A stretch of 64,000 nucleotides of DNA, from NCBI GenBank assembly GCA_003214855.1, contig QCLC01000001.1, positions 124,001 through 188,000 of the forward strand. Reading direction: 5' to 3'. This DNA is from Prochlorococcus sp. AG-412-I05 (GTDB lineage: Bacteria; Cyanobacteriota; Cyanobacteriia; PCC-6307; Cyanobiaceae). Below are positions 33,239 through 38,264 of this stretch, piece by piece (position 1 is the first letter of the stretch; each line of letters opens with the position of its first letter). Both the position numbers and the translations under genes were made by a program. A model generated the notes under the pieces. It worked only from the letters and a program-made list of their open reading frames with translations. It had not been told where the DNA came from and did not search any database.

Positions 33239-34630
33239 TTGAGCTTTGATCCCCTGTTCAGCCTGATCAGGCGATACACCCGTGAGCCGCTTTGGAAAGT
33301 CGGACTGGCTTTTGTATCACTGATGTTCGCGGCTTTGATTTGGTTTGTGGGGTTGCAAGACAGCTTCAGCAGGCCGTCAGTGACCCCAACCATCTCCATG
33401 CAGCAACAGGAGATGGCTTTGCTTGCTGATCAGTCCGTCCCTGCAGCCATTAGGCCTCTGCTGGTGGGTGAGGATCCAACATTGGCTTTGCAAGAAGCTC
33501 TCGGTGAGATCCCTCTCAGTCAGATGAATGAACGCCAGAGGCTGTTGCTCGCCGGACTCCAATCTTCAGGGGCAGAACGTCGTGAGCTCCTGGCTGCTTC
33601 AGTGCAGTCACCGTTATTGATTCCTCTACAGCAGGCGCTACTGGCTAGTACGCAAGAAGGGGGCCTGTCACTTGCTGATCGTGAGGCGCTTGGCTCATTA
33701 AGCGGGGACCCTTTGCTTCAGCAGGTTGGTTGCTTTGCTCTTGGCGGGGATCGCGATGACTGCGTGAATCCCCGTGTCGCATCGAGCATGGCTTTGAGGC
33801 TGGTCTTGAGCGTGCTGTTACCGGCGGCGGCTCTACTTGCCGGGACTGGGCTTTTGTTGCGTCATCTTTGGATGTTGTTACGCAAGTCCGTTGCTCCCTG
33901 GCCACCGCTTCAGGCCTTACCACTTTCCTTAACGGACATGGTGCTGCTGATTGCCTGTGGATTCGTGGTCTTGGGTGAGGTGATTGCTCCCGCTTTCGTG
34001 GCTCCGCTGAGTGCCTTGATGTCGAGGGGGATGGACAGCCCCTTGAGCAAAGCGTTGACAGTGGTGATTGGCTACGGCGCTTTGGCACTACCGCCATTGT
34101 TGATTCTCCGTCAGCAGCTGCGCAGTCTGCAGGCAACTGATCGGCCCATTGATGGATGGTTGCAGTGGCGTCTGCAGCCTTGGAGTTCAGCGTTGCTGCA
34201 GGCAGGTCGAGGCTGGTTGATGGTGATGCCGTTGGTTCTACTGACTGGATGGCTGATGGGATTGCTGTTGGGGGATCAAGGCGGAAGTAACCCCTTATTG
34301 GAACTGGTACTGCGCAGCAAGGATCCATTGGCCTTGATGTTGCTAGCCACTACCGCTGTGATTCTGGCGCCTCTCTTTGAGGAGTTGGTTTTTCGTGGTG
34401 CGCTTCTGCCTGTATTGGCGAAATCTTTTGGTCCGCTATGGGGTGTGGTAACAAGCGCCTTCGTGTTTGGTGTGGCTCACCTGAGTGTTGGTGAATTACC
34501 TCCGCTGTTTGTGTTGGGCTTGGGACTCGGTCTATTAAGGCTTAGTTCAGGTCGTCTTTTGCCCTGCGTGCTGATGCATGCGCTTTGGAATGGGGTTACT
34601 TTCATCAATCTTTTGCTGCTTGGCGGATAA
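33239..34630 (+). CDS. CPBP-family intramembrane metalloprotease
   Basis: A 463-residue membrane protein. The C-terminal CPBP (CAAX protease/bacteriocin-processing) domain is clear: EELVFRG (EExxxR) near residue 382, FGVAHL with its His some 35 residues later, and a last His in LMHALWNG. About 270 residues before it hold an N-terminal anchor (about 20-37), a soluble part with EALGEIPLSQ, and further helices. Substrate is unknown; many cyanobacterial relatives sit near envelope genes. TTG start, divergent from the histidine phosphatase. Confidence 0.85.
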   Translation: MSFDPLFSLIRRYTREPLWKVGLAFVSLMFAALIWFVGLQDSFSRPSVTPTISMQQQEMALLADQSVPAAIRPLLVGEDPTLALQEALGEIPLSQMNERQRLLLAGLQSSGAERRELLAASVQSPLLIPLQQALLASTQEGGLSLADREALGSLSGDPLLQQVGCFALGGDRDDCVNPRVASSMALRLVLSVLLPAAALLAGTGLLLRHLWMLLRKSVAPWPPLQALPLSLTDMVLLIACGFVVLGEVIAPAFVAPLSALMSRGMDSPLSKALTVVIGYGALALPPLLILRQQLRSLQATDRPIDGWLQWRLQPWSSALLQAGRGWLMVMPLVLLTGWLMGLLLGDQGGSNPLLELVLRSKDPLALMLLATTAVILAPLFEELVFRGALLPVLAKSFGPLWGVVTSAFVFGVAHLSVGELPPLFVLGLGLGLLRLSSGRLLPCVLMHALWNGVTFINLLLLGG

Positions 34631-34711
34631 CTGAACTCTTCAATCAGCATGTGATTGTCAGCGACTTAGCCTTGCGGAGGCCTATTGAGGGTGGTTCACT
34701 GATTTATTACA

Positions 34712-35191
34712 GTGGCTTATTCGGTGGTTGCCGCACTCCAACAGCGTTCGGTAACTGCTAACCGTGCTGTTGCGCGGGCACGTTCTGCCCGCACACTTGA
34801 GCTGATCCAGGGATCCTTGTCTTCAAGGAAGGTGGCTCGCCAGTCGCCAGTCCTGGCAGGACTGCATCGGGCTGCGGATGGTGCATTGATCGGTGTTTTG
34901 GTTGCTGCGGCATTGATGTCCGCTCTCACGCTGCATTGGCAGCATCGTTGGACCATTGCTTTCAACAGGCTGGAGACCACTCGCTCATTGGCTCATCGTC
35001 TTACGGATTCAACCGCGATGATTGAGCGTCACTTATTGGTTGAAACCAGGTTGCCTCAGTCTATGGTTCCCACAAAGGTTGCCAACCTTCTTTATCTCGA
35101 ACGTTCTGCTGATCCGTCTGTTGGTGTTGTCTCTGGAAAGTCGCAATTGCTTAGCCAATTGATGGGCCAACCCATTAATCACGGCTACTGA
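34712..35191 (+). CDS. FtsL-like bitopic protein, candidate divisome subunit
   Basis: A 159-residue protein with a basic cytosolic head (many Arg/Ala), one membrane helix (about residues 59-75, LIGVLVAAALMSALTLHW) and an outer domain opening with a helix (FNRLETTRSLAHRLTDSTAMIERHLL) and ending in a Pro/Ala segment. Its TGA overlaps the ftsI ATG (TGATG). Size, topology and position directly before ftsI are those of FtsL, whose sequence is poorly conserved and which many cyanobacteria appear to lack by similarity search. Function is inference from context. GTG start. Confidence 0.6.
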   Translation: MAYSVVAALQQRSVTANRAVARARSARTLELIQGSLSSRKVARQSPVLAGLHRAADGALIGVLVAAALMSALTLHWQHRWTIAFNRLETTRSLAHRLTDSTAMIERHLLVETRLPQSMVPTKVANLLYLERSADPSVGVVSGKSQLLSQLMGQPINHGY

Positions 35192-36999
35192 TGCCTGCCT
35201 CAAAGGCTCGTCGCTTACGAAGCTCCAGGAGGCGTGCCCAGGGCGTGATTGCGTTGGAATCAGTTCCTGCTCATCGGATGCGATGGGTGTTTTCCATCCT
35301 CTGCGTTGGGTTGATTGGACTTGTGGGCCGGATGGCTTGGTTGCAGGTTTTGCAAGCACCGGAACTTGAAGCCCGTGCAAGGGCTGTGCAGACCCAGCGA
35401 ACCCAGCCGATTGGGACACGGCGTTCAATTGTGGACCGCAATGGACGACTGGTGGCTCTCGATGAGGAACGCTTTCGACTTTGGGCTCATCCTCGTTATT
35501 TTAATTTCCCCGGGGATGATCCCGGTTTGATTCGCAAGCCACTGGATGTTGCTCGCAAGCTCTCCGGGGTGTTGGCGATGCCTGTTGCCGAATTGGTGCA
35601 GCGATTTGGTGACCGTCCTTCTGGTGTCAAGCTTGCTGAAGGATTGGATCAGGACATCGTCAATGAAATCCGCAACCTTGGTATCAGTGGTTTAGATCTT
35701 GAGGCTTATCCACAGAGGCTCTATCCGCAGGGCTCTCTGTTTGCCAACGTGGTGGGCTTTCTTAATTTGGATCGCGTCCCACAGGCGGGATTGGAGCAAA
35801 GTCGCCACGAGGATTTGTTGCGTCATGAACAGGTGCGCAGCCTGCGCCGAGGAGCGGATGGCACCCCCCTTCCTGACGACCTGGCTCCGGGAGTGTTTTA
35901 TGGCGATCATCTAAGCCTGCAGCTCACTTTGGATGCTCGTTTGCAGGAGCTGGCGGGGCAGGCACTTGTGGCCCAGGTCAAAGAGTGGAAGGCCAAGAAG
36001 GGAGTGGCCATCGTGATTGATGTCACCAATGGAGAGTTGCTGGCGCTGGCGTCCACACCCACATATGACCCGAACAAGTATTGGCAATATTCGCCCTCTC
36101 GCTTTCGCGAGTGGTCCGTTCAGGACCTTTATGAACCTGGTTCTACCTTAAAGCCGATCAACCTTGCCCTTGCTCTTCAGGAAGGTGTGATTCAGCCGGG
36201 GGGAATGGTGAACGACAACGGATCATTGAAGGTCGGTGGATGGCCTATTTCCAACCATGATCGTCAGAGCCATGGGGTGATCGACTACGCCACGGTGCTG
36301 CAAGTTTCTAGCAACGTCGGCATGGTGAAGATCATGCGTCAGCTCAAACCCTCGCTGTACTGGGATTGGTTGCGCCGGCTAGGACTTGATGTCAAGCCCG
36401 ATACCGATTTGCCGGGGGCTATTGCAGGTCAGTTAAAGACGAAGGAGCAATTCGTGGCTCAGCCAATTGAGCCGGCCACGGCGGCATTTGGACAGGGACT
36501 CTCGCTTACGCCACTGAAGCTGGCCCAGTTGCATGCCTTGATTGCCAATGGTGGCCGCCTGGTGAGTCCCCACATCACCAGGGGATTGCGGGCGGGAGAA
36601 GCGTTGGCTCCACGCGCCGCCGCAACAACTGGACATCAACTACTGCGCCCAGATGTCACCAGGATTGTGCGGGACTGGATGGAATCGGTGGTAGAGAAAG
36701 GGAGTGGGAAAGGGGCGAAAACGCCTGGTTATCGCATCGGTGGCAAGACCGGCACTGCTCAGAAAGCACTGAATGGGGTCTATTTGTCAGGAGCAAAGAT
36801 TTGCAGCTTTGTTGCCCATCTGCCGGTTGATAATCCTCGTTATGTGGTGGTGGTCGTGGTGGATGAACCCCAGGGGGGCAATGCTTATGGGTCCACGGTG
36901 GCGGTGCCTGTGGCGAAGCAGATCATTGATGCTTTGCTGGTGCTTGAAAAAATTCCACCTAGCACTGAGCAGACTCATTCTCAGCCGGCCAAAGGCTAA
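35191..36999 (+). CDS. ftsI: peptidoglycan transpeptidase FtsI (PBP3-like)
   Basis: A 602-residue bitopic penicillin-binding protein making septal cross-links. Membrane anchor at residues 33-55, a dimerisation-like domain with the conserved RGSIVDRNG-type box (RRSIVDRNGRLVALD, 77-91), then the transpeptidase domain with STLK (318-321; Ser318 nucleophile), SSN (373-375) and KTG (519-521). The ATG overlaps the stop of the upstream FtsL-like gene by one base, implying co-translation. The C-terminal region ends soon after the domain, as in class B PBPs. Confidence 0.95.
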   Translation: MPASKARRLRSSRRRAQGVIALESVPAHRMRWVFSILCVGLIGLVGRMAWLQVLQAPELEARARAVQTQRTQPIGTRRSIVDRNGRLVALDEERFRLWAHPRYFNFPGDDPGLIRKPLDVARKLSGVLAMPVAELVQRFGDRPSGVKLAEGLDQDIVNEIRNLGISGLDLEAYPQRLYPQGSLFANVVGFLNLDRVPQAGLEQSRHEDLLRHEQVRSLRRGADGTPLPDDLAPGVFYGDHLSLQLTLDARLQELAGQALVAQVKEWKAKKGVAIVIDVTNGELLALASTPTYDPNKYWQYSPSRFREWSVQDLYEPGSTLKPINLALALQEGVIQPGGMVNDNGSLKVGGWPISNHDRQSHGVIDYATVLQVSSNVGMVKIMRQLKPSLYWDWLRRLGLDVKPDTDLPGAIAGQLKTKEQFVAQPIEPATAAFGQGLSLTPLKLAQLHALIANGGRLVSPHITRGLRAGEALAPRAAATTGHQLLRPDVTRIVRDWMESVVEKGSGKGAKTPGYRIGGKTGTAQKALNGVYLSGAKICSFVAHLPVDNPRYVVVVVVDEPQGGNAYGSTVAVPVAKQIIDALLVLEKIPPSTEQTHSQPAKG

Positions 37000-37091: not shown

Positions 37092-38264
37092 ATGGCCACA
37101 CTCCTTGAGCAGCTTTCCACCATGACCGTGGTCGTGGCGGATACCGGTGATTTGGACGCCATTAGAAAGTTCACCCCCAGGGATGCCACGACCAACCCTT
37201 CATTGATCCTTGCGGCGGCGCAGATTCCTGCTTATCAGAGTTTGATCGATGAGGCTCTTCATTCCTCCCGTCAGTTATTGGGCAGCTCTGCAGCTGTGGA
37301 GGAGGTGGTCCATGAGGCTCTCGATGAAATTTGTGTAATCTTTGGGAAGGAAATCCTCAAGATTGTTCCTGGCCGTGTTTCCACTGAAGTGGATGCTCGC
37401 CTCAGTTTCAATACTGAAGCCACAATCGATAAGGCTCACAAACTCATTGGCCTTTATAACGATGCGGGCATCACTAATGATCGCGTTTTGATCAAGATAG
37501 CTTCTACTTGGGAGGGTATAAAAGCAGCCGAGGTTTTGGAGAAGGATGGAATTCATTGTAACTTAACTCTGCTATTTGGCTTTTCTCAGGCTGTCGCTTG
37601 TGCAGAAGCAGGAGTCACTTTGATCTCTCCTTTTGTTGGGCGAATCCTTGATTGGTACAAAGCTTCTACTGGTCGGGATTCTTATACAGGTCCAGAAGAT
37701 CCTGGTGTGATCTCGGTGACCAAGATCTTTAATTACTTCAAAACCTATGATTACAAGACTGAGATCATGGGTGCGAGTTTCCGCAATCTTGACGAAATTA
37801 TTGAATTGGCTGGATGTGATTTGTTGACCATCTCACCAAAGCTTTTGGATCAGCTGCGTAGTACAGAGGCTCCGCTGATGCGTAAGTTGGATGCGGTCAA
37901 TCCTGTTGCTGCAGAGTCTCAGGTCCATGTTGATAAGGAGAGTTTTGAGTCAATGATGAGGGCTGATCGCATGGCTTTCGAGAAGTTGGATGAAGGGATT
38001 CGCGGCTTTAGCAAGGCGATTGAAACTCTTGAGGCTCAGTTGGCGCATCGATTAGCTGTTTTGGAGGGAGGAGCTGCCTTCTGCCATGTTGTTCAGGAGA
38101 TTTTCATGCTCAATGATCTCGATGGTGATGGTTGTATCACTAGAGAAGAATGGCTCGGTAGTGATGCGGTATTTGACGCCTTAGATCATGACCATGATGG
38201 CCGACTTCTTCAGGAAGATGTTCGTTCCGGGCTGGGGGCTGCTTTGGCACTGACAACAGCTTGA
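37092..38264 (+). CDS. tal: transaldolase with C-terminal EF-hand pair
   Basis: A 390-residue transaldolase B-type enzyme of the pentose phosphate pathway, moving a dihydroxyacetone unit between sugars. The Schiff-base lysine is K135 in [12 protein letters not shown], with DATTNPSL (31-38) and [17 protein letters not shown] also typical. The last 50 residues add two EF-hand loops: D342 to E353 ([12 protein letters not shown], complete) and D365 to D376 ([12 protein letters not shown], Asp at position 12). Canonical TalB ends near residue 317, so this is a fusion seen in marine cyanobacteria; a calcium effect is unproven. A carbon-metabolism role at night is likely. Confidence 0.94.

Follow-up and report, generated by a model that had tools for sequence, protein, structure and literature searches.

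A small membrane protein encoded directly upstream of ftsI in Prochlorococcus sp. AG-412-I05 is probably the cyanobacterial orthologue of the cell division protein FtsL, an identity assigned through a chain of profiles together with gene order and from which we infer its function. FtsL acts with FtsB and FtsQ in holding and activating FtsW-FtsI. According to two papers, cyanobacteria lack both FtsL and FtsB (PMC4748335; PMC7766704), and the candidate thereby makes a long-standing gap testable; it is very likely a divergent FtsL, and its interest lies in filling this gap stated in the literature. A sequence-only reading had proposed the identity from position and topology, and it is now supported by the order rsmH-candidate-ftsI, by profile-profile links and by genome-wide searches. 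A published table for Prochlorothrix lists ftsL, ftsB, ftsA and ZipA, given there without loci (PMC5069947). Another study assigns ftsL by position in many phyla, merging groups on that basis, and describes the cyanobacterial dcw genes except mraZ and ftsA as generally present but dispersed (PMC8871954); its data may already assign some cyanobacterial ftsL genes. The candidate gene was named in no paper found in a literature search made without most subscription journals and all preprints.

The candidate gene and its overlap with ftsI

The window, meaning the whole stretch of 64,000 nucleotides that was analysed (contig QCLC01000001.1, positions 124,001 to 188,000), contains the following features of the candidate and its neighbour:

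34712..35191, + strand: candidate ftsL ORF, 159 aa with a GTG start; likelier start at GTG 34724 (155 aa), from relatives
34871..34933, + strand: predicted transmembrane segment, about residues 54-74 (hydropathy; within AlphaFold2 helix 46-111)
34934..35044, + strand: predicted continuous helix past the membrane, about residues 75-111 (AlphaFold2)
35063..35101, + strand: MVPTKVANLLYLE stretch, residues 118-130 (hhalign and alignments)
35183..35188, + strand: C-terminal Gly-Tyr (52/52 picocyanobacterial loci)
35189..35193, + strand: TGATG stop/start overlap with ftsI, 1-base overlap
35191..36999, + strand: ftsI (602 aa, class B PBP), adjacent gene whose product is the presumed partner (ORF and Pfam)

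The stop/start overlap that had been read from the sequence is present at 35189-35193: the candidate TGA spans 35189-35191, and its A (35191) is the first base of the ftsI ATG. The FtsI ORF (35191-36999) matches PF00905 (5.6e-70) and PF03717 (7.3e-7) in Pfam. Comparison was extended to 52 picocyanobacterial loci, 39 retrieved through the protein itself and 13 through ftsI, together yielding 46 distinct proteins. As for conservation of the overlap across picocyanobacteria, the 1-base overlap recurs at 36 of the 52 loci, near-duplicates among them, when the distance is taken to whichever in-frame ftsI start codon lies nearest.

An ORF for the 159-residue protein proposed earlier does exist at 34712-35191, but relatives favour 155 residues from 34724. 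In a 95%-identical relative (L011), TAG is the codon directly before the aligned GTG 34724, and the mechanical ORFs of L006, L007 and L009 also start at the position aligned with 34724, which makes GTG 34724 the likelier true start. The nearest named record found for the protein is from Prochlorococcus sp. MIT 0701 (93% identical). The ORF is, as judged from substitution ratios, under purifying selection (dN/dS about 0.16-0.23; six pairs, four distinct); this and the detection of homologues in 137 of the 151 genomes of the family argue that it is not a chance ORF.

Predicted topology and C-terminus

The bitopic architecture previously read from the sequence, comprising a basic head, a single helix and a helical outer part, is borne out by hydropathy, charge and AlphaFold2, as a prediction. 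Residues 1-53 contain nine K/R against one D/E, and the lone hydrophobic segment begins at residue 54. The AlphaFold2 model, based on ten aligned sequences, has a single unbroken helix from residue 46 to 111, with pLDDT block means of 84-93 for residues 51-100, and is weak elsewhere, the model as a whole having a mean pLDDT of 64 and a pTM of 0.29. The candidate is thereby predicted to share the FtsL trait of a bitopic, N-in protein with one transmembrane segment followed by a long periplasmic helix, a likeness to FtsL as represented by E. coli b0083, TIGR02209 and NF053549 (FtsL_Actino). Unlike FtsL, the candidate family has a variable basic head and, in most members from outside picocyanobacteria, a Pro-rich tail. 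Heptads were detected at p<0.05 in 3/46 picocyanobacterial, 10/49 other cyanobacterial and 1/15 outside-class reference proteins, a test that is weak even on the reference.

Towards the C-terminus, the MVPTKVANLLYLE stretch profile-aligns in hhalign with a GLVPxxPxxxIFL stretch of other cyanobacteria. An ORF ending in Gly-Tyr precedes ftsI in all 52 picocyanobacterial loci. The ends are 39 GY and 10 AY in the 49 proteins from the rest of the class Cyanobacteriia, and 10 GF, 2 GY, 2 AY and 1 AW in the 15 proteins encoded in the same slot outside the class; the motif is unbiased in the picocyanobacterial set only, since the other sets were filtered for a [GA][YFW] end. E. coli FtsL differs in ending QK. 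Speculatively, the C-terminal Gly-Tyr may be a contact point.

Gene order and origin

In two class loci (L141 in G205 and L143 in G256), the gene sits between rsmH (mraW) and ftsI, which is the canonical position of ftsL; the upstream gene was identified as rsmH by PF01795 (2e-95 and 4.9e-100). We take the two genomes to come from Gloeobacter violaceus and from an Anthocerotibacter-like species, both presumably early-branching. L141 shows a 4-base overlap of rsmH with the gene and a 1-base overlap of the gene with ftsI. The rsmH-ftsL-ftsI order is also that of E. coli, where rsmH and ftsL share 4 bases just as rsmH and the gene do in L141. Outside the class, in genomes presumed to be non-photosynthetic, a bitopic ORF of 132-205 aa occurs before ftsI in 15 of 18 loci, and the ORF preceding this slot gene is rsmH (PF01795) in all six loci tested. 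No candidate ORF was found before ftsI in L155, L156 and L159, which belong to family f41 outside the class. The gene thus has the position that typifies ftsL, directly before ftsI and ancestrally between rsmH and ftsI, an order common to L141, L143, the outside-class relatives and E. coli. The window itself differs in that rsmH is not adjacent to the candidate, its upstream neighbour being a CPBP-type gene.

Profile links to FtsL

Sets for hhalign were assembled from ORFs near ftsI of at least 90 aa and less than 310 aa, ending in [GA][YFW] and with a peak hydropathy of at least 1.2. This filter kept 52/52 picocyanobacterial loci, 49/67 other class loci and 15/18 loci outside the class; six loci (L040-L045) were excluded as duplicates. 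The picocyanobacterial set was linked to that of other cyanobacteria with 96.7% probability (E 4.7e-10), and the latter to the outside-class slot proteins with 95.9% (E 5.9e-9). Direct comparison of the picocyanobacterial and outside-class sets gave 19%, and comparison of the picocyanobacterial set with the other two merged gave 97.2% (reversed 2.5%); reversed controls reached 8.1% at most.

The outside-class slot proteins themselves resemble FtsL models, with matches to NCBIfam FtsL_Actino (NF053549) in 11/15 (best 5.1e-7), to TIGR02209 in 5/15 (best 1e-5), to FtsL_COG5462 in 5/15 (best 1.4e-5) and to PF04999 in 1/15 (0.042). In this NCBIfam matching, the score listed is that of the first member, the L146 slot protein, with 27.4 bits where the cut-off is 55; the cut-off of an FtsL model was not treated as defining, given the behaviour of PF04999 in 14 control genomes. 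B. subtilis has FtsL. PF04999 is insensitive, being over its cut-off in one of the 14 controls, ringing in two and silent in B. subtilis; it was over cut-off in none of 146 genomes of the phylum. Eight of its ten best loci hold a DivIC-like ORF, and two (L107, L112) do not. Among the 49 other cyanobacterial members, six match FtsL_Actino (best 0.0014) and five TIGR02209 (best 3.7e-4), but GspM is matched as often as FtsL_Actino, by six (best 0.0016). In Pfam, FtsL_2 in a single member at 0.16 was the sole FtsL model among the matches listed for the 49, which cover 25 of 37 families. The window protein, unlike FtsL proteins, is matched by no FtsL model and gave no match in Pfam or NCBIfam at E ≤ 1, and searches with 40 picocyanobacterial members turned up no FtsL model either. 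E. coli FtsL produced no alignment with the cyanobacterial sets in hhalign (0.41, 0.62 and 3.75%) and scored 28% against a DivIC set. A Foldseek search with the low-confidence model (mean pLDDT 64) returned no FtsL, and searches of solved structures with two profiles, one giving ten weak matches and the other none, brought up no FtsL.

Because the hhalign sets were partly chosen by topology, a whole-genome search was also run with a profile (A1) of the 15 outside-class slot proteins, to which none of the 195 class genomes searched had supplied rows; the search scores only candidates from a loose first pass. At E ≤ 0.1, it gave 23 matches in 21 of the 195 genomes. These were compared with the loci matched by a second profile (A2), made from the 49 family members from outside picocyanobacteria and used at a threshold of E ≤ 0.01. 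Among the 12 strongest of the 23 (E ≤ 0.0142), 11 coincide with the A2 locus in the genome concerned (G217, G322, G355, G336, G259, G328, G313, G301, G362, G221 and G203); the match in G218 (0.001) falls off it, as do all 11 weaker matches (E 0.0193-0.0888).

Homology to FtsL is supported in this way by a chain of profiles, the comparison with E. coli FtsL being negative. That characterised FtsL proteins give no direct sequence match is compatible with a bitopic, FtsI-associated protein of cyanobacteria having replaced FtsL without common descent. Such a replacement is improbable, however, as the outside-class relatives share the order of rsmH, a slot gene and ftsI and have a slot protein similar to FtsL models, and as profile matches join the cyanobacterial family to these slot proteins.

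FtsB/DivIC and FtsQ

FtsB/DivIC (PF04977) is a division protein that is likewise small, bitopic and helical. DivIC resembles FtsL, and the outside-class slot set matches a DivIC set at 95% in hhalign, with 5/15 of its proteins matching Pfam DivIC (best 3.8e-5); on these grounds the candidate might correspond to the partner of FtsL, FtsB/DivIC, or to FtsL and FtsB merged in one protein, instead of being FtsL itself. Little probability attaches to this, however, since neither cyanobacterial set matches DivIC (0.23% and 1.8%), a DivIC-family protein is encoded away from the rsmH-ftsI slot in G372, G378 and G380, and that slot holds ftsL in E. coli. Moreover, a DivIC profile built from outside-class relatives yielded, at E ≤ 0.1, seven matches scattered over unrelated places in five of the 195 class genomes and never on the candidate family; nor did the window protein match DivIC. 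Assignment of the candidate to FtsL is accordingly preferred.

Among 146 genomes of the phylum, 67 carry a DivIC that exceeds the Pfam cut-off, and in the rows listed each of these lies outside the class; in class Cyanobacteriia, FtsB is therefore either absent or out of reach of the profiles used. An FtsQ-type POTRA domain was found in 192 of 195 class genomes. CyDiv (Anabaena All2320) resembles the candidate as a proposed cyanobacterial division protein of FtsB/DivIC type, but it has its transmembrane segment near the C-terminus and its N-terminus outside, i.e. the opposite topology, and is described for filamentous forms (PMC4748335). Synechocystis Sll0447, according to a further paper, carries a DivIC domain and was studied in motility (PMC9880817).

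Distribution in cyanobacteria

Within the family of the window, the 137 of 151 genomes with a relative detected by a search with the window protein represent 39 of 40 genera. The 14 genomes lacking a match belong to g8 (seven), g14 (three), g31 (two), g10 (one) and g13 (one), and in the g8/g14 loci L093, L094, L103 and L104 a divergent ORF precedes ftsI. Across the class, A2 matches 182 of 195 genomes; 43 of the 195 supplied profile rows, so the 139 matched among the other 152 give the fairer figure. Matches are single per genome, except in G343 with two, and the sole match in the genome of the window is the candidate ORF (E 6.7e-8). The 13 misses comprise 12 in the family of the window (g14, g10, g38 and g28; genomes of 1.6-1.9 Mb) and G303.

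Reading upstream of ftsI in 67 further class loci placed the gene there in 53. The strict filter passed 49 of these, and four were added (L074, ending AY; L080, NY; L082, SY; and L134, GY), the gene being present there though the filter missed it. A hand tally of the 37 class families covered puts it before ftsI in 29. The other 14 loci lack the gene in front of the ftsI that was identified; 13 of these carry it elsewhere (by A2 in G198, G200, G206, G207, G210, G214, G268, G275, G336 and G350, and also in G197, G212 and G244). In G336 and G344, it precedes another class B PBP (PF00905 and PF03717). No copy was found by genome search in G447, and its ftsI locus is also without it. Although copies away from ftsI adjoin other genes, as judged by ORF beginnings, it is scarcely credible that the candidate is a membrane protein unrelated to division that merely lies beside ftsI, given how often it recurs there among loci and families and its 1-base overlap in 36 of the 52 picocyanobacterial loci. 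By eye, the copies in L167 and L173, both away from ftsI, adjoin ORFs with DnaJ-like first residues.

Proposed role

As an FtsL, the candidate would place its basic head in the cytoplasm, and its membrane helix would run on as a long periplasmic helix alongside the stalk of FtsI and the membrane helices of FtsW/FtsI. Acting with FtsQ, and also with FtsB should cyanobacteria possess it, the protein would switch the FtsW-FtsI synthase at the septum into the active state, while translational coupling to ftsI could keep the candidate and FtsI in step. It is this role, encompassing contacts, activation and essentiality, that we infer for the protein. A more tentative and rather unlikely extension is that photosynthetic cyanobacteria activate FtsWI by FtsQ and FtsL without FtsB, with FtsL alone, by way of an extended tail and its almost invariant terminal Gly-Tyr, making the contact with FtsQ for which FtsB serves elsewhere.

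With a candidate present in nearly all genomes searched and an origin traceable to the rsmH-ftsL-ftsI order, a gene can be named for tests in model strains. In Synechococcus elongatus, ftsI and ftsW mutants are reported to form filaments (PMC7381316). The gene bears on how septal wall synthesis gets switched on in cyanobacteria, the phylum from which plastids arose, and a candidate FtsL turns the missing cyanobacterial FtsB into a sharp question.

Surroundings of the locus

The candidate is preceded by a gene for a CPBP/Rce1-like intramembrane protease (PF02517) at 33239-34630. A match to the CPBP gene was obtained in 52/52 picocyanobacterial loci, plus L052 and L053, and it was read directly as preceding the candidate in all nine loci with 4 kb flanks. 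Near the gene start, a conserved RGTGKTTSACT-like element lies at 34690-34700, with one exact match in the window, and is possibly a regulatory site. Its core TT[CG]ACT, sought from 110 bases before to 30 after the mechanical start, occurs in 40 of 46 distinct picocyanobacterial loci against 3.9 expected from base shuffles, and in 6 of 49 other cyanobacteria. Downstream, a transaldolase-like ORF (37092-38264) has a C-terminus that resembles, by eye, EF-hand calcium-binding repeats, and a match to this ORF follows ftsI in all nine loci with 4 kb flanks.
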